From Bacilli bacterium (GTDB lineage Bacteria; Bacillota_I; Bacilli_A; RFN20; CAG-826), in the NCBI GenBank assembly GCA_024695235.1, contig JAILIP010000030.1:1-49158 (forward strand): DNA of 49,158 bases. The letters run 5' to 3'. Positions 33,857 to 47,341 of the stretch are shown here, piece by piece. The notes under the pieces are model-generated. The model was not told the origin of the DNA, did not search any database, and worked only from the letters and a program-made list of their open reading frames with translations. Every line of letters begins with the position of its first letter. Within the stretch, counting starts at the first letter, position 1. A program made the position numbers and the translations under genes.

Positions 33857-34396
33857 TTATTCAACTTTTATCTCATTCGAATGCCATGATTTTGCTATGT
33901 ATGTTATTGTTATTGTTTTTTTAGAATCTAAAACATCAATCTTTTTTCTATAAGTTTTCTTTCTACCAGCAAAGAGAATAAAGTGTGAACCAATAGGTAA
34001 GCACAGCGAAATCTCACCATTTGGCTCGATTGTATGCCATGTGATTCCGTCTAGAGTTATTCTGAGCTTAAATTTTTCATTAATTAATGAATTGTATTTG
34101 ATGATTACATTATTGATAGGTGATGCGCTATCTAATCGCTTTTCCAAAGCACGAGCAAATTCGTTGTTTGAATCGATATCCAATACTTTGTTACAATAAT
34201 CTCTAGCTTTAGCATAATCGTGTTTTAATTCGTACTCATATGCTCTATTTAATAGATTATTTATCTCGTTTTCGCGATTAATCTGAACAACTTCGTTCAC
34301 TATTATTTTGGTGCCACAATATGAGCAAAAAGCGAAATTCCTATTATCTTGAATTTCCATAGAAGCGCCACAATTAGGACATTTAACTTGTTTCAT
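33857..34396 (-). CDS. Zinc-ribbon protein with TPR-like helices
   Basis: The N-terminal zinc ribbon has CPNCGASMEIQ and FCSYCGTK (two CxxC knuckles), close to that of the TIR protein at 37,790. Residues ~45-95 are helical with a TPR-like AKARDYCNKVLDIDSNNEFA. The last ~75 residues are beta-rich (LRITLDGITWHTIEPNGEIS). At 179 aa it is cytoplasmic. Sharing the ribbon with the TIR and SPFH proteins suggests a common partner. The mRNA is predicted leaderless. Confidence 0.7.
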   Translation of the reverse strand: MKQVKCPNCGASMEIQDNRNFAFCSYCGTKIIVNEVVQINRENEINNLLNRAYEYELKHDYAKARDYCNKVLDIDSNNEFARALEKRLDSASPINNVIIKYNSLINEKFKLRITLDGITWHTIEPNGEISLCLPIGSHFILFAGRKKTYRKKIDVLDSKKTITITYIAKSWHSNEIKVE

Positions 34397-34719: not shown

Positions 34720-35466
34720 CTATTTCAAGTCAAGCAATTCTTGCTTTTTTTGATTGTATTCTTCCAGAGTAATAGCCCCATCATCAAGCAATCTTTTGTA
34801 TTTCTTTATAAGGTCTGCTATCTCATCTTCACTAAGTGAGAAATCGCCCTTTGTTGGCTTTGGTGTCGATACTTGAACCTGCTGTGTTTGAGGTATAGGC
34901 CTATTAACAGTTCTCGAATCTATTTCTCTAACGCGCTTGTCAAACTCAGCTTTTGTAATGACGCCTTTTTCGTAAATAGCTCTGTGCACTTCGACTTCTT
35001 TATTGCGCTCTTCCCATGTTAAATACTTGCGTTCAGGAGAAGGTGAAGATTGGCGAGTTGTTGTAGTGGTTCTTGTACTTGAGCTGGTCCCATACAGTTT
35101 TGGAGTTGTGTGATGTGTTGTGCCATAGAGTTGATCATCTGGGATCGCTAGTGTAAAGATTCCACCTAATAAACTAACGAATAATAATGTACAGACTCCA
35201 CATCCTACTTTCTTTCCTTCGCTTACTGCTGTTTGCCTCCAAATTAAGATGATTAATCTAAAGATTAGGAAAATAACCCATAATACCCACACCCATGCAG
35301 GATATGCCACGGTTGTGTATGATGTACTAGGATATGAATAGCCAGAATAGTAGTTATAGTTGTATGTTGTAACTGCAACGGTTTGACCACGAGAAAGTAG
35401 CACAAAACCGAGAATGGTATATCCAATTCCTCCAAGCCAGCTGAAGAACGTTGCCGCGCCTTTCAT
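34720..35466 (-). CDS. Membrane protein with C-terminal SHOCT domain
   Basis: The first ~120 residues contain three hydrophobic segments with a Tyr/Ser/Thr-rich loop (YNYNYYSGYSYPSTSYTTVA). A Ser/Thr-rich linker follows, then two short helical hairpins: one around EVHRAIYEKGVITKAEFDKR and a C-terminal LLDDGAITLEEYNQKKQELL, the SHOCT pattern. SHOCT modules are often found on membrane or phage-derived proteins and mediate oligomerisation. The function is unknown. Confidence 0.75.
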   Translation of the reverse strand: MKGAATFFSWLGGIGYTILGFVLLSRGQTVAVTTYNYNYYSGYSYPSTSYTTVAYPAWVWVLWVIFLIFRLIILIWRQTAVSEGKKVGCGVCTLLFVSLLGGIFTLAIPDDQLYGTTHHTTPKLYGTSSSTRTTTTTRQSSPSPERKYLTWEERNKEVEVHRAIYEKGVITKAEFDKRVREIDSRTVNRPIPQTQQVQVSTPKPTKGDFSLSEDEIADLIKKYKRLLDDGAITLEEYNQKKQELLDLK

Positions 35467-35670: not shown

Positions 35671-35868
35671 GTGGATAAAAAATTAAAAGTAACTATGAAA
35701 AAGTACACAGGTGAAACTTCTGTTGTTTCTTTGCGTATGCCTAATGAACTTATTTCTAAGCTTGATGATGTATGCGAGAAGACAGGAAGAACTAGGAATG
35801 AGCTTATTATTAAGAGCCTTGATTTCGCTTTAGAGAATATCGAAATCGAAGGCGAAGACGATGACTAA
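35671..35868 (+). CDS. Ribbon-helix-helix (CopG-type) DNA-binding protein
   Basis: SVVSLRMPNELISKLDDVCE is the beta-strand plus helix A of an RHH fold, and GRTRNELIIKSLDFAL is helix B. At 65 aa it is a bare RHH with an acidic tail. It starts at GTG, fixed by AGGAGGA upstream. As first gene before the SPFH/4-TM/TIR genes, with a repeated operator at its own promoter, it is likely the repressor of that operon. An antitoxin role is possible, but no toxin of a known family adjoins it. Confidence 0.85.
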   Translation: MDKKLKVTMKKYTGETSVVSLRMPNELISKLDDVCEKTGRTRNELIIKSLDFALENIEIEGEDDD

Positions 35869-35879
35869 GGAGAAAGAAA

Positions 35880-37049
35880 ATGGCAAATCTAATTGACGTA
35901 ATTAAGTATGAGGGTGGTAATACAACACTTATTTATAAACACCCAAAGACCGATTTTAATCTAGGATCTCAACTCATTGTTCATGAATCACAAGAGGCTG
36001 TTTTCTTTAGAGATGGTGAAGCTCTTGAATCATTCGGTCCAGGAAGACACACTTTAGAAACACAAAATCTTCCTCATTTAAAGAATCATATTAATGCAAT
36101 GGCAGGCGGACAACACGTTTTCCATTCAGAAGTGTATTTTATTAACCTCACTACCGAATTAGGTGTTAAGTGGGGTACAGATAGCAAGATTAGAATGTTT
36201 GACCCAATGTCTGGTTTACATCTCGAGATTGGTGCCAGTGGAACATTCAATATTAGAGTTAACGATGGTAGAAAACTACTTATCAAAGTTGTTGGTACTA
36301 CATCAGGCTTTGAACAAGAAGAACTCTTTGGTTCGGTTGGATACTCAACCAACAAAGCCATTGGCCTTTTTAGAGGCATGATAGTTTCTAAGGTTAAAAC
36401 ATACCTTGCTAAGGCTATTAGAGAAAACGATATTAACATCCTTGAAGTGGATGAACATTTAGATGAACTCTCTGAATTATTAAGAGTTGAAATCAACAAG
36501 GTTCTTGATTCATACGGAATGTATATTCCTGAATTCCACTTGGTAAATGTTTTACTTCCAGAACCAGGAGAAAATCCAAACTTCGATAGAATGAAAGCTC
36601 AATATGGTGAGAGATTTGTTCTTGCTGAAGAAGAAAGAATTGCTCAAGCCGCTGGTAAGGTCGAGCTTGCTAAAGCAACTGCTCATGCAACAGCAGAAGC
36701 AGAAGCCACCAAGATTAAAGGCATGACAGATATCGAACTAGAAAAGCAAAGAGGCTTAGCACATGCTGAAGTCCTCAAGGCTCAAGGTGGAGATTATCAA
36801 TCCGAAACAGCTAGACAAGTTGGTGTTGCTGCAGCCTCAAATGAGGGTGGCGGTTCATCAAGTATCGCTAGTGACATTGTTAAAGCAGGCGTCGGTATAG
36901 GCGTTGGCGTTTCAGTTGCTAAAGAAGTTGTTGGGACAGTAAAAGAAGTCGTAGTAGCTGCTGATGGTTCGTGGGAATGCCCAGAATGCCATCACGCAGG
37001 TAATAAAGGCAAATTCTGTGAAGAATGTGGCCATAAGAGAGGAGAATAA
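35880..37049 (+). CDS. SPFH-domain protein with C-terminal zinc ribbon (YdjI / 'virion core protein' type)
   Basis: The SPFH/band-7 domain spans residues ~25-260 (QEAVFFRDGEALESFGPGRH early), followed by an Ala/Glu-rich helix (AKATAHATAEAEATKIKG), a Gly/Ser-rich stretch and a zinc ribbon WECPECHHAGNKGKFCEECG. It matches the Bacillus YdjI-like group. SPFH proteins form membrane-bound oligomeric rings or microdomains. It ends 2 nt before the 4-TM gene and starts 11 nt after the RHH gene, so all are one operon. A scaffold for the downstream membrane proteins is inferred. Confidence 0.88.
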   Translation: MANLIDVIKYEGGNTTLIYKHPKTDFNLGSQLIVHESQEAVFFRDGEALESFGPGRHTLETQNLPHLKNHINAMAGGQHVFHSEVYFINLTTELGVKWGTDSKIRMFDPMSGLHLEIGASGTFNIRVNDGRKLLIKVVGTTSGFEQEELFGSVGYSTNKAIGLFRGMIVSKVKTYLAKAIRENDINILEVDEHLDELSELLRVEINKVLDSYGMYIPEFHLVNVLLPEPGENPNFDRMKAQYGERFVLAEEERIAQAAGKVELAKATAHATAEAEATKIKGMTDIELEKQRGLAHAEVLKAQGGDYQSETARQVGVAAASNEGGGSSSIASDIVKAGVGIGVGVSVAKEVVGTVKEVVVAADGSWECPECHHAGNKGKFCEECGHKRGE

Positions 37050-37051
37050 CC

Positions 37052-37768
37052 ATGGAACTCAAACTTAAAGTTACAAAAAGAGGTATCGTTACAGGATTAA
37101 TTCTCTTAATTCTTCTAGCGGTCTATAACGTTTTATTCTTTGTTATCCCATTCAATAGAAGTTATTCAAACGGTTCATTTTGGGTAACATATGGCGTTAC
37201 ATCATTCTTAATCGTTTTTATGGCAGTAGTGGTCTTCATCGGATTTCATGACAAAGACATTAAATCAAGAGTATTTGGAGTCCCTATTGTATATTTAGGA
37301 TATTCAGCATTATTAGTCCAGCTCATCGTTGACGGTGCAGTTATGGCTGTTGGTAATTTCTTTGAAATTAAGATTTGGATTGCAATCATTGTTGAAACAT
37401 TACTTTTGGCATTCTTCTTTATTTCCTTAATTGCTAGAACAGCATATAAAGACACAATTAAGAAAGTCGATGCTCAAAAAGAAAGAAAGGCTTACATGCA
37501 AGATTTAAGAGTTCAGCTTGATACTTTAGTTGGGACTAACTCAATTGAAGCCATTAAGCCTGAATTAGAAAAGCTTGCTGAAACTGTCAGATTTGCTGAC
37601 CCTGTTTCATCTAAAGCCTCAGTCGATACAGAAGATCAAATTACAGTTGCTTTCGAATCATTAAGCAAGGCAGTTGCTAATGGTGATGTCGAAAAAGCAC
37701 AAGTTTCTATCGCAAAGATGAATAGACTTTTAAACGAAAGAAAAGCCTTATTAAAAAATAGTAAGTAG
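37052..37768 (+). CDS. Four-TM membrane protein with helical cytoplasmic tail
   Basis: Four membrane segments lie in the first ~135 residues, followed by a ~100-residue helical tail (KVDAQKERKAYMQDLRVQLD). AGAGGAG precedes the start. It is placed between the SPFH and TIR genes with 2- and 21-nt gaps. No family was recognised; position suggests a membrane partner of the SPFH or TIR protein. Confidence 0.75.
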   Translation: MELKLKVTKRGIVTGLILLILLAVYNVLFFVIPFNRSYSNGSFWVTYGVTSFLIVFMAVVVFIGFHDKDIKSRVFGVPIVYLGYSALLVQLIVDGAVMAVGNFFEIKIWIAIIVETLLLAFFFISLIARTAYKDTIKKVDAQKERKAYMQDLRVQLDTLVGTNSIEAIKPELEKLAETVRFADPVSSKASVDTEDQITVAFESLSKAVANGDVEKAQVSIAKMNRLLNERKALLKNSK

Positions 37769-37789: not shown

Positions 37790-40700
37790 ATGGCAGTTTA
37801 TAAGTGTAAAATGTGCGGTGGCACAATCGAAGTAACAGAAGGTCAAAATGTTGTTACCTGCGAGTTTTGTGGTGCCACTCAAACAGTTCACTCATTTGAT
37901 AACGAGAAGAAGAACACTTATTTTAAGCGTGCCGAAACATTACGTTTTAGGTGCGAGTTTGATAAAGCAGCTGGCATCTATGAGACAATTGTCTCGGAAT
38001 TTCCAAGAGAAGCAGAAGCTTATTGGGGTCTTGTTCTTTGTAAATATGGAATTGAATATGTTGACGATCCTAAGACCGGTCTGAAGATTCCAACATGTCA
38101 TAGAACTAGATTTGAATCCATATACGAAGACACAGATTACAAGAATGTTATTAAACATGCTGATGTGGTCGCTCGCGGTGTCTATGAGAAAGAAGCAAAG
38201 GAAATATCAAAGCTTCAAAAATCAATATTGGATATCTCTTCTAAGGAGGAACCATTTGATATCTTTGTTTGCTATAAAGAAACTGATAGAAGTGGCGATA
38301 GAACCCCAGATTCTGTCTTAGCCCAAGATATTTATAAAGAATTGACTCATGAAGGCTATCGTGTCTTCTTTTCAAGAATTACATTAGAAGATAAACTCGG
38401 AACGCAGTATGAGCCTTACATATTCGCTGCACTTCATTCATCCAAAGTAATGATTCACGTTACAACAAGTGATGAAAATAGTGAATCAGTATGGGTAAAG
38501 AACGAATGGCAAAGATACCTTTCATTGATTCAAGAAGGTCAAAAGAAGGTATTGATTCCTTGCTACAAAGGAATTACTGCTTATGAACTTCCTGATGAGA
38601 TGCAAAATCTACAAGGTCAAGACATGTCTAAACTTGGCTCTATGCAAGACTTAGTTCGTGGTGTTAATAAAATACTTGGAAAACATCGAAAAGCGGCCTA
38701 TATAGACCCTTATGATGTTGAGAAGAGTGCTGGCCAAGATGCCTTCGATTCGCAGGTTAATAAAGGCTATGTGTATCTTTCTAAAGAAATGTGGGAAGAA
38801 GCTGAAGAAACCTTCCATGATGCAACTAAGCTTGTGCCACTTTGTGGACGAGCATATATTGGTTTGATGTTAGCTAGAGCACAGGCTGGTTCAATTGATG
38901 ATTTATTAGAGTTCAATGGATATGAAGCCAAAGCTTTAACAATGCTTAGTATTGCTAAATCCTTTGCCGACAAGAAATGTCTAGAAGAGATTGAAGAAAT
39001 CAATAAGAAGATTAGCGAGTTACGTTACAAAGAAGATAAAGATTCGTTATTATACAAACTCTCCCATAGATACTGGGATGATGCTATGGAAATCATTAGC
39101 CAACAAACTGATGAAAAACACAAAATAGAATTCGAAGACCTTTATAAAGAAGCGTTATACAAAGAGTCGTGCATAGATTTAGAAGCAATCAATTCTGTAA
39201 AAGAAGTAGGACTATTTGAAAGATTGATTCGAGATTTTACATGGCTTGGTGATTATAAAGACTCAAAAGATAAACTCCAAGTATGCGCCGAAAAGAAACA
39301 AACAATCTCTGATGCGTATGATGTTTCATGTTTAGGTTTATTAGCATTACCTTTAGTACCTAATCCTACTCTCTCTGATATTTGCAGGGTTGCAGATAAG
39401 ATTGGTAGAAACAGAACTCAAGCCTTCAATCCTCAACCATTTGGAAAAGATTTCAAAGAGAAAGCAGCTAATATTGAAGATTCAGGTATCAAATATATCG
39501 CAAGCAAATCATTAAATCTCATTTCTTCTTTTACAACAGTTCAACAGTGTCAAACATTGAGAACCACTTTAAAATCTCTGAAGAGAGACAATGATTTTAA
39601 TAATGTCTATAAATCCATAAATGAAAAAGAACAGAACATAAAAGAGGTTAATGCCGCCATCAAACGTAAAAAGACTATTAAAGGCTTAAAAATCGGTGGC
39701 ATTGTATTGGCGGCATGCGCTGTCATTACTGGCGTTGTTTTCGGTGTTAAAGGTATTGTGGATGCTGTTAATAGGAGTAATACATATAAATCTGCTTTAG
39801 CAGCTATGGAATCTGGTGAATATGATGATGCAATTGCATATTATCAATCACTAGGTTCCTATAAGGATTCACAAAATAAGATAGAAGTATGTAATGGTTT
39901 AAAGCAACTTGAAGCATCTATAGAAACCAAGAAAGAATCAGATGCGATTAGAGGCATAAAGACTATTGTTTCTGCGGGAGAACCTGTTGATGTGGCATAT
40001 TCACTCAATGGAAATGTTAAGCGAAATTCGCTTGTTAAGTCGTTCCCGGAAACAAGTGTAAGAGATACTATTGACAAAGTTGATTTTGAATTATATAAAC
40101 CATCTGAAAATGGGTATACATTTTCTCATTGGCAATCTAAAAGCGTTGTTTATTGGAATGGTACAACCAATCTTAGTTTACTTAGTAATTGGTTTCTTAA
40201 CTATTACACAATTACTTACAATCTTGACGACGGCCAAAACGATGTAAGGAATCCTTCTAAGTATTCGATTGAAACAGATACATTCAATATTTATCCGGCA
40301 ACTAAATATGGTTATACATTCAAAGGATGGAAAGATTCAAACCAAAATGTTGTTGAAAAGATTGAAGGTGGTTCATCCGGAAACATTACTTTGAATGCGA
40401 CATGGGAAATCAATCATTATACAGTTGTTTTCAAAAACTACGATGGTTATGAATTATACAGAACGACGTGTGATCATGGTGGAAGTGTTGCGTATGATGG
40501 GCCAACACCAACTAAACCAACTGATTCGCAGTATTCCTATACATTTAGCGGTTGGGATGGCAGTTTGACCAATATTACAAGTGACAAGATATTCACTGCT
40601 CAGTTTTCTAATTCAACAAATTCTTATCGTGTTACATTTAAAAACTACGATGGCTCGGTGTTACAAGAAATGAATGTCTTATATGGCGGTTCTGCAGTTT

Positions 40701-42670
40701 ATTCTGGTGCAACACCAACAAAGCCAAATTCTCAAGATGATTTATTTGGATATGTATTTGCTGGTTGGGATACAGATGTTTCATATATTACCGGCGAGAC
40801 AATTGTCACGGCCACATATAACACTGTTAATAGATATCTTGCTACATTCAATAACTACAATGGAAATACTCTGTATTCTGCGAGATTTAATAGTGGTACA
40901 ACTCCTGTGTATGTTGGCAGCACGCCAGACAAACCAGCTGATGCACAATATACATATACATTTAATGGTTGGAACCCATCTTTAACCGGCATTACACAAG
41001 ATACTATTTATACTGCTCAATATGCAAGCGAACTTAATTACTATCTTGTCCGTTTCTTAGGGTATGATGGAGTGACAGTTTTAGAAACCCAGCATGTCGC
41101 ATATGGTGCGCATGCTTCTTATAGTGGTGCTACTCCTACAATGCCAAAAACACAGCAATACACATACTCGTTTAGTGGGTGGAATAAAGATCCTAATTCA
41201 ACATTGATTACTCAAGACACCGATTTTGTTGCTCAATTTGATTCAACGATAAATCAATATACAATCACATTTTTGAATTATGACGGAACATCGTTGGGTA
41301 CTAGTACTGTGAATTATGGTACAAATGCCTCTTATACAGGCCCAACACCTACAAGAGTCTCAGATTCTAGAGGATATGTTTTTGATAACAAATGGACAAC
41401 CACTAACGGTGGTCTACAATATGATGACTTATCAAATGTTGTGGCAAACAGGACCGTTTATGCAGCTTATTCTGTTGAAGGGTATAAGAAAATCTCGGCG
41501 AATTTTGATAGCACAAATGATTCAAGGAATGTTGCAATGCTAACAAATAGTGGAAGAGTATTTATGTTCGGAACAAGTCATAGTGGCGAGTGTGGTGATA
41601 GAGTTTTTAACAATGTTACTTCGCAATATACGCCAATTAACGGAAACGAAATAACAATTGATGGAGAAACATTTGTTGATGTCGAAGTTACGACCAATAA
41701 AGTTTATTTTGTCACTTCTTCTGGAAATGTTTATTACACAGGAAGATACGATGACGATCAGGCAATTTATACTTTGACTCCTATGATTATTCCAAATCCA
41801 AACAATTATCATATTGTTAGAGTCATTTCGTCAGATAACTATGTCAGAAATATGTATGCTCTTGATACCGAGGGAAACATCTATTATTGGAATCAAATGA
41901 CTGGTTATGCAAATGTTAAAATTCTTGAATTTTATACAGCAGATCACCTTCGATTTAAAGATGTTGTCCGATGCGGTCCTCTAGGCTTGGCAGGTCTTAC
42001 ACTTGATGGCGATATTTATGGTTGGGGTTATAATGGCCAACAGCAGATGCCATTAACTAGTAACTATAACAATCAATATGTTGCTACACCGTTAAGGTTT
42101 TCTGATGGCACAACCAAGTTTTCAAAAATTACTGGTGGGTATCACAATCTTGCTGCGATTACAACTGATGGTGTTTTATACATGTCGGGTGTGACGGGCG
42201 GCAATGGTATGAAAATTGGTGATGCGGCATCAAATACGTCAGAGAGTTTTGTAAGTACTGGCATTCAAGGTGTTCACGATGTGGCATTAGGAAGAGAGCA
42301 CGGTATTCTTGTAAAAGATTTGAATTATGATGGGAAAGGTGGTTACAAAGTTTATACATGGGGTGACAATAGACTATATGGAGCTTGTGGCGTTTCTGAT
42401 ACATCTTCTGGTTGGCCTGGTTTCACTGAAATAGATTATTCACTTCTTGTCAAAGACAATTTTAAGTATTCAGAATATCAGTACATAAATGAGAACAACG
42501 ACGACATTAAGGTATTTGCAGGCGACTATATGAGTTATCTTATTACGAACAGAAAGCATTTGGTTGCATGGGGCAGGGATCATGCATATTGTTTAGGAAA
42601 CGATGTTAATAGTTCATTTACCATTGATTCAACGACAAAAACGCCTTCCTATTCTAAATATCGTGAATAA
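37790..42670 (+). CDS. Giant TIR-domain receptor-like protein (zinc ribbon-TIR-TPR-TM-InlB repeats-RCC1)
   Basis: Domains in order: zinc ribbon (CKMCGG...CEFCGA, residues 5-30); TPR-like helices; TIR domain from residue ~155 (DIFVCYKETD) to ~300, with the candidate NADase glutamate Glu239 in WVKNEWQRY; more TPR-like helices; one membrane span at ~632-660 preceded by KRKK; about seven InlB / Listeria-Bacteroides-type repeats at ~805-1225 (FKNYDG...YTFSGWD pattern); RCC1-like repeats at ~1230-1626 (SGRVFMFGTSHSGECGDR). There is no signal peptide, so the basic flank predicts N-in, C-out. Zinc ribbon-TIR-TPR proteins are common in gut Firmicutes; the ectodomain here is unusual. The only visible ribosome site is a weak TAGAG. 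Confidence 0.88.
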   Translation: MAVYKCKMCGGTIEVTEGQNVVTCEFCGATQTVHSFDNEKKNTYFKRAETLRFRCEFDKAAGIYETIVSEFPREAEAYWGLVLCKYGIEYVDDPKTGLKIPTCHRTRFESIYEDTDYKNVIKHADVVARGVYEKEAKEISKLQKSILDISSKEEPFDIFVCYKETDRSGDRTPDSVLAQDIYKELTHEGYRVFFSRITLEDKLGTQYEPYIFAALHSSKVMIHVTTSDENSESVWVKNEWQRYLSLIQEGQKKVLIPCYKGITAYELPDEMQNLQGQDMSKLGSMQDLVRGVNKILGKHRKAAYIDPYDVEKSAGQDAFDSQVNKGYVYLSKEMWEEAEETFHDATKLVPLCGRAYIGLMLARAQAGSIDDLLEFNGYEAKALTMLSIAKSFADKKCLEEIEEINKKISELRYKEDKDSLLYKLSHRYWDDAMEIISQQTDEKHKIEFEDLYKEALYKESCIDLEAINSVKEVGLFERLIRDFTWLGDYKDSKDKLQVCAEKKQTISDAYDVSCLGLLALPLVPNPTLSDICRVADKIGRNRTQAFNPQPFGKDFKEKAANIEDSGIKYIASKSLNLISSFTTVQQCQTLRTTLKSLKRDNDFNNVYKSINEKEQNIKEVNAAIKRKKTIKGLKIGGIVLAACAVITGVVFGVKGIVDAVNRSNTYKSALAAMESGEYDDAIAYYQSLGSYKDSQNKIEVCNGLKQLEASIETKKESDAIRGIKTIVSAGEPVDVAYSLNGNVKRNSLVKSFPETSVRDTIDKVDFELYKPSENGYTFSHWQSKSVVYWNGTTNLSLLSNWFLNYYTITYNLDDGQNDVRNPSKYSIETDTFNIYPATKYGYTFKGWKDSNQNVVEKIEGGSSGNITLNATWEINHYTVVFKNYDGYELYRTTCDHGGSVAYDGPTPTKPTDSQYSYTFSGWDGSLTNITSDKIFTAQFSNSTNSYRVTFKNYDGSVLQEMNVLYGGSAVYSGATPTKPNSQDDLFGYVFAGWDTDVSYITGETIVTATYNTVNRYLATFNNYNGNTLYSARFNSGTTPVYVGSTPDKPADAQYTYTFNGWNPSLTGITQDTIYTAQYASELNYYLVRFLGYDGVTVLETQHVAYGAHASYSGATPTMPKTQQYTYSFSGWNKDPNSTLITQDTDFVAQFDSTINQYTITFLNYDGTSLGTSTVNYGTNASYTGPTPTRVSDSRGYVFDNKWTTTNGGLQYDDLSNVVANRTVYAAYSVEGYKKISANFDSTNDSRNVAMLTNSGRVFMFGTSHSGECGDRVFNNVTSQYTPINGNEITIDGETFVDVEVTTNKVYFVTSSGNVYYTGRYDDDQAIYTLTPMIIPNPNNYHIVRVISSDNYVRNMYALDTEGNIYYWNQMTGYANVKILEFYTADHLRFKDVVRCGPLGLAGLTLDGDIYGWGYNGQQQMPLTSNYNNQYVATPLRFSDGTTKFSKITGGYHNLAAITTDGVLYMSGVTGGNGMKIGDAASNTSESFVSTGIQGVHDVALGREHGILVKDLNYDGKGGYKVYTWGDNRLYGACGVSDTSSGWPGFTEIDYSLLVKDNFKYSEYQYINENNDDIKVFAGDYMSYLITNRKHLVAWGRDHAYCLGNDVNSSFTIDSTTKTPSYSKYRE

Positions 42671-42791
42671 TGCTTGCTTGCTTAATCTAGATGTGGGAAA
42701 CGGACAAAAAACTCGAAAAACCCATCAAAACACCCAAAAACCATGTGGGAAACGCCATTTTTGGTGGGAATCACGTAAATTCAAAAACAGC

Positions 42792-42935
42792 AACTAATAC
42801 AGGCAAAATACAGCGGTAATAGTTCCCACATCGGTGGGGAATAAGTGGTTGAATTCCCACATAGAAAGACTACTACAGGCAGAAAATCGCAGTAATACAT
42901 GCTAATACAAGGCAAAAACCAACTATTACAGGCCG
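42792..42935 (+). repeat. Imperfect tandem units of CTAATACAGGCAAAA type
   Basis: Three to four units begin near 42793 (CTAATACAGGCAAAATACAG), 42870 (CTACTACAGGCAGAAAATCG), 42900 (GCTAATACAAGGCAAAAACC) and 42923 (CTATTACAGGC). Spacing is irregular and GTGGGAA hairpins interrupt them. Confidence 0.45.
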
Positions 42936-43010
42936 ATAAATACTACTTTTCATCGATTTTGGCCCACTATACACTTACATGTGGGAAACGTGGGAAACCG
43001 CTGTAATATA

Positions 43011-43059
43011 CTAGAATTACAATCAAAAAGTAGCGTATTACATACCGTACGCTTCACCA
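43011..43059 (+). repeat. GTAGCGT...TCACCA element, copy 1
   Basis: CTAGAATTACAATC, then AAAAAGTAGCGTA with a hairpin AGCGTA/TACGCT, ending TCACCA. The element stands 12 nt before 183-bp repeat copy 2; its GTAGCG is complementary to the CGCTAC that begins that repeat. Confidence 0.65.
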
Positions 43060-43070
43060 TACTATAAAAT

Positions 43071-43253
43071 ACTCGCTACCAAATCGTTGCTCTTTGAGCA
43101 AAAGATGAGAAAAAGCGAGTTTTTTTGTTTTCTATGACATTCGATTTTTAGTGGGAAATGTGGGAATTTATGGATTTCCAAAGAAATTGAAATGGCAATA
43201 GTGTCGGTTTTAAGATAAAAACAATTCGACACCCGTTCGGGAGAACTCGCTAC
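43071..43253 (+). repeat. 183-bp repeat, copy 2
   Basis: The same length and layout as copies 1 and 3: ACTCGCTAC ends, AGCGAGT at +43, TTGCTC-TTT-GAGCAA inner hairpin, GTGGGAAATGTGGGAA at +80. The middle is diverged, and the second hairpin is GTGTCG/CGACAC (43201-43232) in place of GTCATC/GATGAC, so pairing is kept while sequence changes. It ends 29 nt before the start codon of the next gene. Confidence 0.8.
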
Positions 43254-43269
43254 TTTGCAGAGATTAGTG

Positions 43270-43275
43270 TAAAAT
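43270..43275 (+). promoter_or_regulatory. -10 box of predicted leaderless modular nuclease gene
   Basis: TAAAAT ends 6 nt before the ATG at 43282 (spacer AAACCT). No ribosome site is present. Confidence 0.55.
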
Positions 43276-43281
43276 AAACCT

Positions 43282-45300
43282 ATGCAAAAAAATGAATCAA
43301 TCATTGGCCTATCATTAAAAATGAACAATGGCCAAATGGCCAAATGCATCGCATATCGTGGATATGGTGATTTAGACATACAGTTTGAAGACGGAACTAT
43401 TGTTAGTCATAAAACAAAGTATAATTTCCTTCATGGAATAATAGCAAACCCAAACACTGATAAATACTCATCTCGAAAGAAAAGTATTCTTGGAATGGCT
43501 AATACAATGAGTAACGGCCAAATTGCTAAGTGTATTGCTTATCGAAGAAGCGACGATTTAGATGTTCAATTCGAAGATGGCACCATAGTCAAACATCAAA
43601 CAAAGCATTATTTTATGAAGGGTTTCATTGCAAACCCTAATTACCGCTGGTATCAAAAACTGAGTAACGAGAAATCCTGCTTGGGACAAAAGAAAATAAT
43701 GAATTGCGGAATGGAAGCTGTCTGCATTGAATATCGCGGTTCAATGGATATAGATGTTCAATTCGAAGATGGCACCATAGTCAAACATCAAACTAAATCG
43801 AATTTTGACTCTGGAAAGGTTGTGAATCCTACCTTGGGCAAATGTTATACAACAAAAATCAAGAGTTCTGTTCAAGGAATAACAACTGAAATGAAATGTG
43901 GCATGAACGCAACTTGCCTAGTTTATAGAAATAGTCGAGATATTGATATTCAATTCGAGGATGGCACAATTGTTGAGCACATTTCAAAAAATAGTTTTAT
44001 TTCTGGCGAGACACCGAATCCAAAACTTGGTAGATATTACTCCGTTAAAGGTAATTTAAGCTGTCTTGGAGAAACACGTACTATGAATTGTGGCATGAAC
44101 GCAACTTGTATTTCTTACAATAATGTATCTGATATTGATGTTCAATTTGAAGATGGCACTATTATCACCCATAGATCGAAAAGCGATTTTGTTAAAGGAA
44201 CAATCTCTAATCCAAATTTATCAACTCGTTCGCTTCCTGAAGCAATGGTGTTTTATTCAATAAAAAAGGCTTTTCCTGATGCTATAAGTGGATTTAGGCC
44301 TTCATGGCTCATTAATGCGAACACCAATAAGCCAATGGAAATTGATATTTGGATTCCTTCTAGAAGGGTTGGAATTGAATATGATGGGGTTAAATGGCAT
44401 TCTCTTGAAACTGATAGGGCATTAGAAAAAGCCAACATGATTGCTGATTCAACACAAATTGATAAGTTAATAACTATTTTAGAAAAAGGAAGTATCCCTC
44501 ACCATTCAAAAAAGCATTTAAACATCCAACTTGAAAACAATAGCTTTGGTGAAACTTATTATGATTTAATTGTAGAGTTACAAATTGTGGTTTCGAATAT
44601 ATTAAAGACCCTTGGATATAAGGGCAAGGTTGATATTTTGGAATCCTGTGATTTTGATTTTTTAAGGTCAAAGGTGAGAAGATTTATTTACTTCGAATTA
44701 TTGGAAGATGAATCAAAAACTAAAATTACCAAGCTTAGTAGGCCGTTAAAATTTTCTGAAAGAACAATGCTTGGCATTTCTAAAATAATGAACAACGGAA
44801 TGATGGCCACATGTATTGAAGATAGAGGCTGGAATGATATTACGGTAAGATTTGATGATGGAACAGAAGTTTTTGCTACTCGACAGAGATTTAAAAATAA
44901 ATCGATAGCAAATCCTTCGTTAGGCAAGAATAAAACACAATCTAACAACGCCAAGATTGTTGGCAAAAAAGTTATTATGAATTGTGGAATGCCTGCTATC
45001 TGTATTGTTGATAATGGCTCTTATGACATTAAAATTCAATTTGATGATGGTACGATCGTAAAAACCACTCGTCAAATGTTTATCAACGGACATACATCGA
45101 ATCCATCATTAGGAAAGCAATATGTACAAAAGATTCGAACCTCAATGAAAGGAGAGACAATTATAATGAGAAACGGAATGAAAGCAACTTGCATTGAAGA
45201 TAGAGGCTCAGCCGACATAGATATACGATTTGAAGATGGGAAAATTGTTGAGCATGTTCAAAGATCACATTTTAGAAGAGGAAATGTAAAGAAAAAATAA
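43282..45300 (+). CDS. Vsr/DUF559-like nuclease embedded in eight ~60-aa modules
   Basis: Eight copies of a module with consensus MNxGMxATCIxYRxxxDIDVQ, then FEDGTIVxHxTKxxFxxG and NPxLG are seen: five before and three after one distinct domain at residues ~315-490. That domain has MEIDIWIPSRRVGIEYDG (Asp355, Glu366, Asp368), the PD-(D/E)XK arrangement of very-short-patch / DUF559-type endonucleases, followed by KWHS. Similar modules occur, as I recall, in phage and homing-type nucleases, where they would bind DNA. At 672 aa it has no signal or membrane segment. It directly follows a 183-bp repeat. No methylase is near, so R-M is unlikely; a homing-like role is inferred. Confidence 0.75.
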   Translation: MQKNESIIGLSLKMNNGQMAKCIAYRGYGDLDIQFEDGTIVSHKTKYNFLHGIIANPNTDKYSSRKKSILGMANTMSNGQIAKCIAYRRSDDLDVQFEDGTIVKHQTKHYFMKGFIANPNYRWYQKLSNEKSCLGQKKIMNCGMEAVCIEYRGSMDIDVQFEDGTIVKHQTKSNFDSGKVVNPTLGKCYTTKIKSSVQGITTEMKCGMNATCLVYRNSRDIDIQFEDGTIVEHISKNSFISGETPNPKLGRYYSVKGNLSCLGETRTMNCGMNATCISYNNVSDIDVQFEDGTIITHRSKSDFVKGTISNPNLSTRSLPEAMVFYSIKKAFPDAISGFRPSWLINANTNKPMEIDIWIPSRRVGIEYDGVKWHSLETDRALEKANMIADSTQIDKLITILEKGSIPHHSKKHLNIQLENNSFGETYYDLIVELQIVVSNILKTLGYKGKVDILESCDFDFLRSKVRRFIYFELLEDESKTKITKLSRPLKFSERTMLGISKIMNNGMMATCIEDRGWNDITVRFDDGTEVFATRQRFKNKSIANPSLGKNKTQSNNAKIVGKKVIMNCGMPAICIVDNGSYDIKIQFDDGTIVKTTRQMFINGHTSNPSLGKQYVQKIRTSMKGETIIMRNGMKATCIEDRGSADIDIRFEDGKIVEHVQRSHFRRGNVKKK

Positions 45301-45904: not shown

Positions 45905-47341
45905 ATGAGTTGGGTAATTTATAAACACACATTACTTATCGGTCCTAATAAAGGCAAATGCTATATTGGTCAGACTTGCAAAAAGCCGTCATACAGGTGG
46001 AATTCTGGCAAAGGTTATACATGTGCTGATACTCACTTTGCTAGAGCTATTTTGTTATATGGCTGGAATAATTTTTCACATGAAATAATCGAAACCGATA
46101 TCGATAATGCTACGCTTGCCGATGAAAGAGAAATCTACTGGATAAAATTCTATGATTCTTTTCACAACGGTTTTAACAGTACTTACGGCGGAAACAATCA
46201 TGATCACGAAGGGAAAACTGTTTTTAAATTAGATCCCTCTGATTTGAAGATTTTAGGTTCTTATAAATCTATTTCACTTGCTGCACAAGAAAACCATTTT
46301 AATGCAACCAATATTGCGAGATGTTGCAGAAAAGAAGGTGTCAAGGCATATGGTTTTTATTGGTGTTTCAAAGATGATTATCTAAACTTTGAGCCGAAAG
46401 ATTATCTAGAGATAGGTGTACCGGTTCTGATGTTAGATAAAACTAATTATCATATTATAAAGCGCTTCAAAAGTTTGAAGGATGCTGCATCTTATGTAAA
46501 TACGAATCATACAAATATAATGCAAGTATGTCAGAGAAGAAACTCATTCTCAAATGGCTATGCCTGGTGTTATGAAAAAGATTATTTTATTGGATGGGAA
46601 CCAAAACCTCGTTTGCAAGGAGAACATGGTCACAAAAAAGTAATTTGTGTTGAAACGAGAATTACATATAAATCAGAAAATGAAGCTGCAAGACAGATTG
46701 GTACGAGTGTTGGAAATATTCATCAATGCTTAAAATATCGTCAAAAGACAATTAAAGGATTTCATTTTGCATTTCTTGATGATTTTGATGAGTCGTATAT
46801 ACCTCCTTTAAAGTTTAATCCTAAAAAGGAAATATATTGCTTTGAAAACGACAAAATTTATGAATCCATATCAATGTGCTCGCTTGAACTCAATGTTTCT
46901 GCTAGCCAGATAATTGGAGTCTGTAAGGGTAAGCAAAGCACAGCGAAAAACATGCATTTTTGCTATTTAGACGAAAGAGATAATTTCGTTTTAAAAACTG
47001 GAAAGCAAAGAAATATTCTTTGCGTTGAGACAGGCATTGTCTATCGTTCGCACAAAGAAGCTTTTGAAAAAACCGGAATCAAACACATAATTGAATGTTG
47101 CAGAGGCAATGCATTAACTGCTGGTGGATATCATTGGTGTTATGAGGACGAAAAAGACACATTTACACTCACACAAGAGAAAACTAGAAAGAAAGTACTT
47201 TGCGTAGAGGACAATAAAATATTTAATAGTATGAAGGAAGCATGCGATGCTTACCACATAGATCCATCTTGCTTGTCTGCGGCTTGCAAAGGCAAACAAA
47301 AAACAGCAGGTGGTTATCATTGGAAATATGTAGATGAGTAA
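45905..47341 (+). CDS. GIY-YIG nuclease with six NUMOD-type repeats
   Basis: Residues ~1-100 are a GIY-YIG domain: WVIYKHT...GKCYIGQT, a catalytic Arg in SYRWNSGKGY, the Glu in LADEREIYWIKFYDSF, and the closing FNSTYGG. Six ~55-65-residue repeats follow, each with a short strand, a small helix-turn-helix-like section and a GxxWCYxDD-type end (NIARCCRKEGVKAYGFYWCF is one example), matching NUMOD1/IENR1 modules that bind DNA in homing endonucleases. It is 478 aa, unusually rich in repeats. It lies just after a 183-bp repeat, as does the preceding nuclease. No intron or intein host gene is visible. Confidence 0.85.
   Translation: MSWVIYKHTLLIGPNKGKCYIGQTCKKPSYRWNSGKGYTCADTHFARAILLYGWNNFSHEIIETDIDNATLADEREIYWIKFYDSFHNGFNSTYGGNNHDHEGKTVFKLDPSDLKILGSYKSISLAAQENHFNATNIARCCRKEGVKAYGFYWCFKDDYLNFEPKDYLEIGVPVLMLDKTNYHIIKRFKSLKDAASYVNTNHTNIMQVCQRRNSFSNGYAWCYEKDYFIGWEPKPRLQGEHGHKKVICVETRITYKSENEAARQIGTSVGNIHQCLKYRQKTIKGFHFAFLDDFDESYIPPLKFNPKKEIYCFENDKIYESISMCSLELNVSASQIIGVCKGKQSTAKNMHFCYLDERDNFVLKTGKQRNILCVETGIVYRSHKEAFEKTGIKHIIECCRGNALTAGGYHWCYEDEKDTFTLTQEKTRKKVLCVEDNKIFNSMKEACDAYHIDPSCLSAACKGKQKTAGGYHWKYVDE

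Follow-up and report, generated by a model that had tools for sequence, protein, structure and literature searches.

A predicted single-span TIR protein with an exchangeable C-terminal module, encoded in a conserved cluster with SPFH and membrane proteins

The window, by which we mean the whole stretch of 49,158 nucleotides analyzed here, holds a compact cluster of same-strand genes whose last member encodes a TIR protein of 1626 aa (37790-42670, +). This protein joins a zinc ribbon, TPR-like helices and a TIR domain with an invariant glutamate to a C-terminal module which is exchanged for others among its relatives, and the genes beside it, for an SPFH protein and a four-span membrane protein, recur with it elsewhere. 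We interpret the cluster, giving this reading about an even chance, as an SPFH-scaffolded, membrane-anchored putative TIR NADase that probably serves in defense or envelope stress, and some members of which gained an outward-facing sensor.

Domain layout, TIR fold and predicted topology

The reading frame coincides with that of the original prediction, and the layout proposed there (zinc ribbon, TIR, span, InlB-type and RCC1-like repeats) is confirmed by Pfam, alignment and hydropathy. The N-terminal zinc ribbon (residues 1-35; 37790-37894, +) is followed by TPR-like helices (residues 39-85; 37904-38044, +; TPR_14 at 43-81, model helices at 39-53, 57-70 and 75-85), the TIR domain (residues 154-298; 38249-38683, +) and a helical, TPR-containing region predicted to be cytosolic (residues 311-633; 38720-39688, +; TPR_2 at 323-350). 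Beyond a single predicted transmembrane helix (residues 635-653; 39692-39748, +) lies a juxtamembrane TPR-like repeat, predicted to be outside (residues 663-705; 39776-39904, +; TPR_16/TPR_6 at 666-688), which is resembled by a stretch likewise placed after the membrane helix in two relatives, L064 and L004. About seven InlB-type repeats (residues ~739-1235; 40004-41494, +) and an RCC1-like domain (residues 1248-1620; 41531-42649, +) complete the protein. An assembly chimera is ruled out by the uniform GC content along the frame (35.8-36.9%) and by homologs with the same chassis.

Membership of the TIR superfamily is nearly certain. Pfam places TIR_2 (PF13676) at residues 158-281 (E 5.8e-10, above the cut-off), and an AlphaFold model of residues 1-310, built from an alignment of 21 sequences, reached a pLDDT of 86, its TIR part matching solved TIR domains with Z scores of 14-17 (SPARTA TIR-APAZ, RUN1 and SARM1; AbTir 14.1). 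Structure prediction bears out the TIR domain of the original prediction. The zinc-ribbon cysteines C6, C9, C24 and C27 and the glutamate Glu239 (38504-38506, +) are invariant in 21/21 aligned sequences, and K202, E208, W235 and other TIR residues are likewise invariant across distant members. Glu239, singled out earlier in the motif WVKNEW as the putative NADase catalytic residue, lies in a weak profile alignment opposite the SKWCLME glutamate of the flax L6/L7 TIR, which we take to be the catalytic residue of plant TIRs, with E642 as its counterpart in SARM1. Judged from the fold and Glu239 only, catalytic competence as an NADase is likely. A profile of the whole N-terminal alignment, compared with solved structures, returned mostly designed TPR/WD40 chains from summed weak repeats and was set aside.

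The original prediction had placed a single span near residue 632 with KRKK on its N-terminal side. Residues 635-653 are the only strongly hydrophobic stretch of the protein (mean Kyte-Doolittle 2.46) and are preceded by KRKKTIKGLK. In 11/11 single-span homologs, the 15 residues before the helix contain 4-10 Lys/Arg, against 0-4 in the 15 residues after it, an excess which by the positive-inside rule points to an N-in/C-out orientation. The C-terminal 973 residues contain 4.5% Lys and 0.6% Cys, compared with 10.4% and 2.5% on the cytosolic N-terminal side, and with 4.3% and 0.7% in an exported InlB-repeat lipoprotein of the same genome. Besides the TIR protein, this genome encodes two proteins with matching InlB repeats (38-44% identity), and both begin with lipoprotein signal peptides (LSGC and LSAC lipoboxes). 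Charge bias, composition and the lipoprotein relatives of the repeats together predict, with high confidence, that the TIR domain is cytosolic and the repeats lie outside, as first proposed. Were residues 635-653 instead a buried or peripheral helix, the C-terminal repeats would be cytosolic and the protein would sense from within the cytosol, as other bacterial TIR proteins do; TPR-like repeats do flank the hydrophobic stretch on both sides, and certain relatives lack a span, but the hydropathy of the helix, the charge bias shared by all single-span members, the composition of the C-terminal part and the lipoprotein relatives of its repeats make this reading very improbable.

Outside the predicted span, the matches to Flg_new/List_Bact (PF09479, E 6.9e-13) identify the repeats as InlB-type, and units counted by eye agree with the earlier estimate of about seven. 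The RCC1-like repeats were upheld in part: the RCC1 and RCC1_2 models (PF00415, PF13540) match above their own cut-offs, but the match to PF25390 (residues 1248-1537, E 3e-32) lies below that model's own 150-bit cut-off, and the single-sequence AlphaFold model of this part alone (pLDDT 34) is unusable as fold support. Surface proteins commonly carry InlB, BspA-type leucine-rich or RCC1 repeats, and in the InlB lipoproteins of this genome no enzyme domain was seen. Both points suit a reading in which the TIR is an interaction domain devoid of NADase activity, within an adhesin or surface organizer tethered to an SPFH microdomain. That reading is improbable given the invariance of Glu239, K202, E208, W235 and other residues across distant members, which favors catalysis, and the presence of NADase TIRs among the top structural scores.

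The gene cluster and its surroundings

The putative operon opens with a ribbon-helix-helix-like protein of 65 aa (35671-35868, +; GTG start, preceded by GGAGG), whose match to RHH_1 is weak and under the cut-off (E 0.0042); a homolog also lies directly upstream of the SPFH gene in L064 (59% identity) and L103 (47%). It is followed by an SPFH/Band_7_1 protein of 389 aa with a C-terminal zinc ribbon (35880-37049, +; PF13421, 2.5e-35) and by a membrane protein of 238 aa, here mem238 (37052-37768, +), with four predicted spans (residues 16-34, 45-63, 74-92 and 110-128), a polar tail some 100 residues long and no Pfam family above the cut-off. The SPFH, mem238 and TIR genes are separated by gaps of 2 to 21 bases.

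Conservation of this arrangement was gauged across 30 close TIR loci (the window, L003-L022, L063-L065, L077, L078, L102-L104 and L111). An SPFH homolog was present in the fetched stretch of 23/30, mostly adjacent, and a mem238 homolog (22-31% identical) stood beside SPFH in 18/30, counts to be read in the knowledge that several loci without a partner are short or cut contigs and that several are close relatives, and hence not independent events. The order of the genes is not fixed (Ruminococcus has TIR-TIR-SPFH-membrane protein), and this variation speaks for a functional link and against mere inheritance of a single arrangement; we consider it highly probable that the TIR protein is functionally linked to SPFH and mem238. 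These partners, absent from the original prediction, may be a more general input than the ectodomain. At a further locus (L110, G460:C1:29000-44000), the gene after the SPFH-mem238 pair encodes a helical zinc-ribbon protein that lacks a TIR domain, and next come two coiled-coil/TM proteins and an AAA-type ATPase. SPFH and mem238 may thus form a platform on which zinc-ribbon partners can be exchanged.

Two genes divergent to the cluster encode a zinc-ribbon/TPR protein of 179 aa (33857-34396, -), with 24-38% identity to N-termini of the TIR-protein type, and a membrane protein of 248 aa with a C-terminal SHOCT domain (34720-35466, -; 2.1e-11). Both products may be additional components of one membrane complex with the proteins of the cluster. 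Downstream of the TIR gene, the intergenic stretch up to the next reading frame (42671-43280) abounds in repeated GTGGGAA motifs. In the frame itself (43282-45300, +; 672 aa), a nuclease-like core (EIDIWIPSRRVGIEYDGVKWH) is surrounded by about eight internal repeats of the kind MNCGMxATCIxYRGSxDIDVQFEDGTIV, and Pfam gave weak matches only; beyond this frame lies a homing-endonuclease-like frame with NUMOD-type domains (45905-47341, +; 2.2e-17).

No recognized defense gene adjoins the cluster, there being only nuclease-like frames downstream. None of the PADLOC 2023 models matched SPFH, mem238, the TIR protein or the downstream frame at E 1, and Pfam scans of the tested flanking frames found no SIR2/SLOG/macro-type (ThsA-type) neighbor. 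The NCBIfam model ThcB4 matched weakly, far under its cut-off (E 0.011).

A shared core with exchanged C-terminal modules

Over residues 1-310, the window protein is 53-63% identical to L063, L064, L065, L004 and L003. Conservation is poor past the TIR domain, and the distal module differs. Behind a single span, the window protein carries InlB and RCC1-like repeats, L004 RCC1_2 repeats (1.7e-58), L063 and L064 InlB and BspA-type leucine-rich repeats (LRR_5, 1.9e-198 and 3.5e-114), and L065 InlB repeats alone, while L018, L020, L066, L067 and L111 feature DUF6273 behind theirs. The C-terminal end of L104 resembles DUF6273 by eye and has no Pfam match, although it is labeled as such on our tree. 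Homologs with the exact order TIR, span, InlB and RCC1, which the original prediction had suggested seeking, proved elusive: a search of 216 genomes of the family matched the exact RCC1-like part in its own genome only, and the relatives L063 and L064 have leucine-rich repeats after the InlB repeats.

Other members have two to five spans without an ectodomain, or no span; L006, L012, L021 and L022 lack a span and keep the SPFH neighbor. As many relatives with the same core thus do without span or ectodomain, the ectodomain is dispensable for core function. A quick tree built from the first 300 residues requires C-terminal architecture to have switched at least 16 times among 40 labeled rows; for the class of ectodomain, the minimum is 4 among 11. 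Many deep branches of this tree are weak, which makes both counts rough. The sister pair L064, with its LRR ectodomain, and L102, with five spans, has a support of 100.

The family is patchily distributed. At 1e-30, close TIR relatives occur in 7 of the 392 genomes sampled from the phylum, and a looser search with the TIR part at 1e-3 found 23/224 genomes in the family. The N-terminus (residues 1-310) had no match at 1e-10 in named plasmids or GenBank phages. An 18.3-kb IMG/VR contig (L115) encodes terminase, portal, head, tail-fibre-like, endolysin and DNA invertase/recombinase genes, followed by SPFH, a mem238 homolog, a 152-aa protein and a TIR-TM-DUF6273 protein, directly after whose gene the contig stops. 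The cluster may have been carried by the phage as cargo, or it may be host sequence next to a prophage. The 152-aa protein, encoded on the viral contig between the membrane-protein and TIR genes (L111:7528-7986, +), has an RNGIAHG motif and looks HEPN-like by eye.

The nearest characterized parallel for the SPFH part is, by analogy, the YdjI system. YdjI of B. subtilis, a Band-7 protein whose C-terminal part is a zinc finger, has no membrane anchor; it relies on the membrane proteins YdjG/H to be recruited, and it positions PspA at the membrane (PMC8581546). In the PspA-YdjGHI system, as in the present cluster, a single operon encodes such an SPFH/Band-7 zinc-finger protein together with membrane proteins as its partners (PMC8581546, PMC11237479). 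The two differ in that a TIR protein here replaces PspA/YdjG and in that mem238 shows no TPM domain. Homology of mem238 to YdjH found no support: a TPM domain is described for YdjH, and mem238 matches no Pfam family above the cut-off. The CesT/Tir domain of one of these reports (PMC11237479) is a chaperone family rather than a TIR domain.

This parallel, together with an SPFH partner more widespread than the ectodomain and kept beside the span-less proteins, lends itself to another reading, in which SPFH and mem238 supply the input (membrane fluidity, depolarization or damage), the ectodomain is merely an anchor or cell-wall positioning device, and the whole is a PspA-YdjGHI-like envelope-stress module with a TIR output. 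We consider it rather unlikely. PspA (PF04012) was not found in the organism's own genome, which is 70% complete; mem238 departs from YdjH as noted (PMC11237479); and the repeated gain of large, binding-type C-terminal modules would be left unexplained.

Proposed mechanism and comparison with known systems

In the reading we prefer, that of a scaffolded TIR enzyme some of whose versions face outward, a single-pass N-in/C-out protein would anchor a cytosolic zinc-ribbon/TPR/TIR NADase at the membrane. The SPFH protein, which may oligomerize, and the four-span protein would probably organize it there, the zinc ribbon and TPRs being the probable dock onto this scaffold. The outside InlB-type spacers and RCC1-like domain would probably serve to bind a ligand at the surface or to signal damage to the envelope, and either such binding or a disturbance of the membrane would cluster the TIR domains and switch on NAD+ cleavage. 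The outcome would be either loss of NAD+, stopping growth or killing the cell as abortive infection does, or an ADP-ribose signal. Known TIR NADases (SARM1, plant TIRs, TIR-STING, SPARTA) act by assembly, and clustering by a scaffold would therefore be a natural trigger. NADase activity, scaffold contacts, ligand sensing and a defense role are steps which we infer rather than observe. A putative anti-phage role falls a little short of an even chance, and the predicted outside-to-inside signaling is more tentative still.

The likeness to Toll and the TLRs lies in a single span with a repeat ectodomain predicted outside and a TIR inside, and the receptor analogy is made stronger by L063 and L064, with their TIR-TM-InlB-LRR order and outside leucine-rich repeats. 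The differences are considerable. TLRs have an N-terminal LRR and a C-terminal TIR (type I), whereas here the TIR is N-terminal and the orientation type II; the TIR is of bacterial type and is accompanied by a zinc ribbon, TPRs and a putative NADase function; the leucine-rich repeats of the relatives are BspA-type; and the window protein itself has an InlB/RCC1 ectodomain and no LRR. As its order and TIR type differ, the window protein is not a member of the Toll/TLR family.

Thoeris ThsB, SPARTA TIR-APAZ, TIR-STING and SpbK share with it the TIR fold and conserved glutamate, and a copy of the present cluster lies on a phage-type contig. The cues ascribed to those systems are cytosolic ones or phage components, and the present protein differs in its predicted span, its repeats predicted to be exported and its SPFH partner. 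SARM1 and the amoeba protein TirC offer a further likeness, a TIR NADase under the control of a separate region of the same polypeptide; for TirC, an N-terminal membrane helix is predicted (PMC13142454). The two differ from our protein in domain order, and no exported sensor-like repeats are described for them in the text consulted (PMC13142454). In the literature on TIR with RCC1 or Flg_new repeats, Dictyostelium TirE is mentioned with RCC1 repeats; the rest was unrelated. The mainly open-access literature searched held no description of SPFH-TIR clusters or of bacterial TIR-TM-LRR proteins, and we provisionally regard this cluster and this layout as novel.

At its most ambitious, the receptor reading would have exchangeable outer modules (LRR, RCC1-like, DUF6273) joined through one helix to a cytosolic TIR NADase, organized by SPFH and partly spread by phages, as surface receptors that sense phages or competitors before entry and reach the Toll plan independently. 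We hold this extension to be somewhat doubtful, and its consequences follow only if it is true. Bacterial TIR immunity, as described in the literature found, responds to cytosolic cues; swappable outer modules, leucine-rich repeats included, would give it a cell-surface arm. A membrane-spanning TIR family would make the Toll-receptor layout testable as convergence, and would offer a compact system of three to four genes in which to ask how an extracellular cue controls a TIR enzyme.
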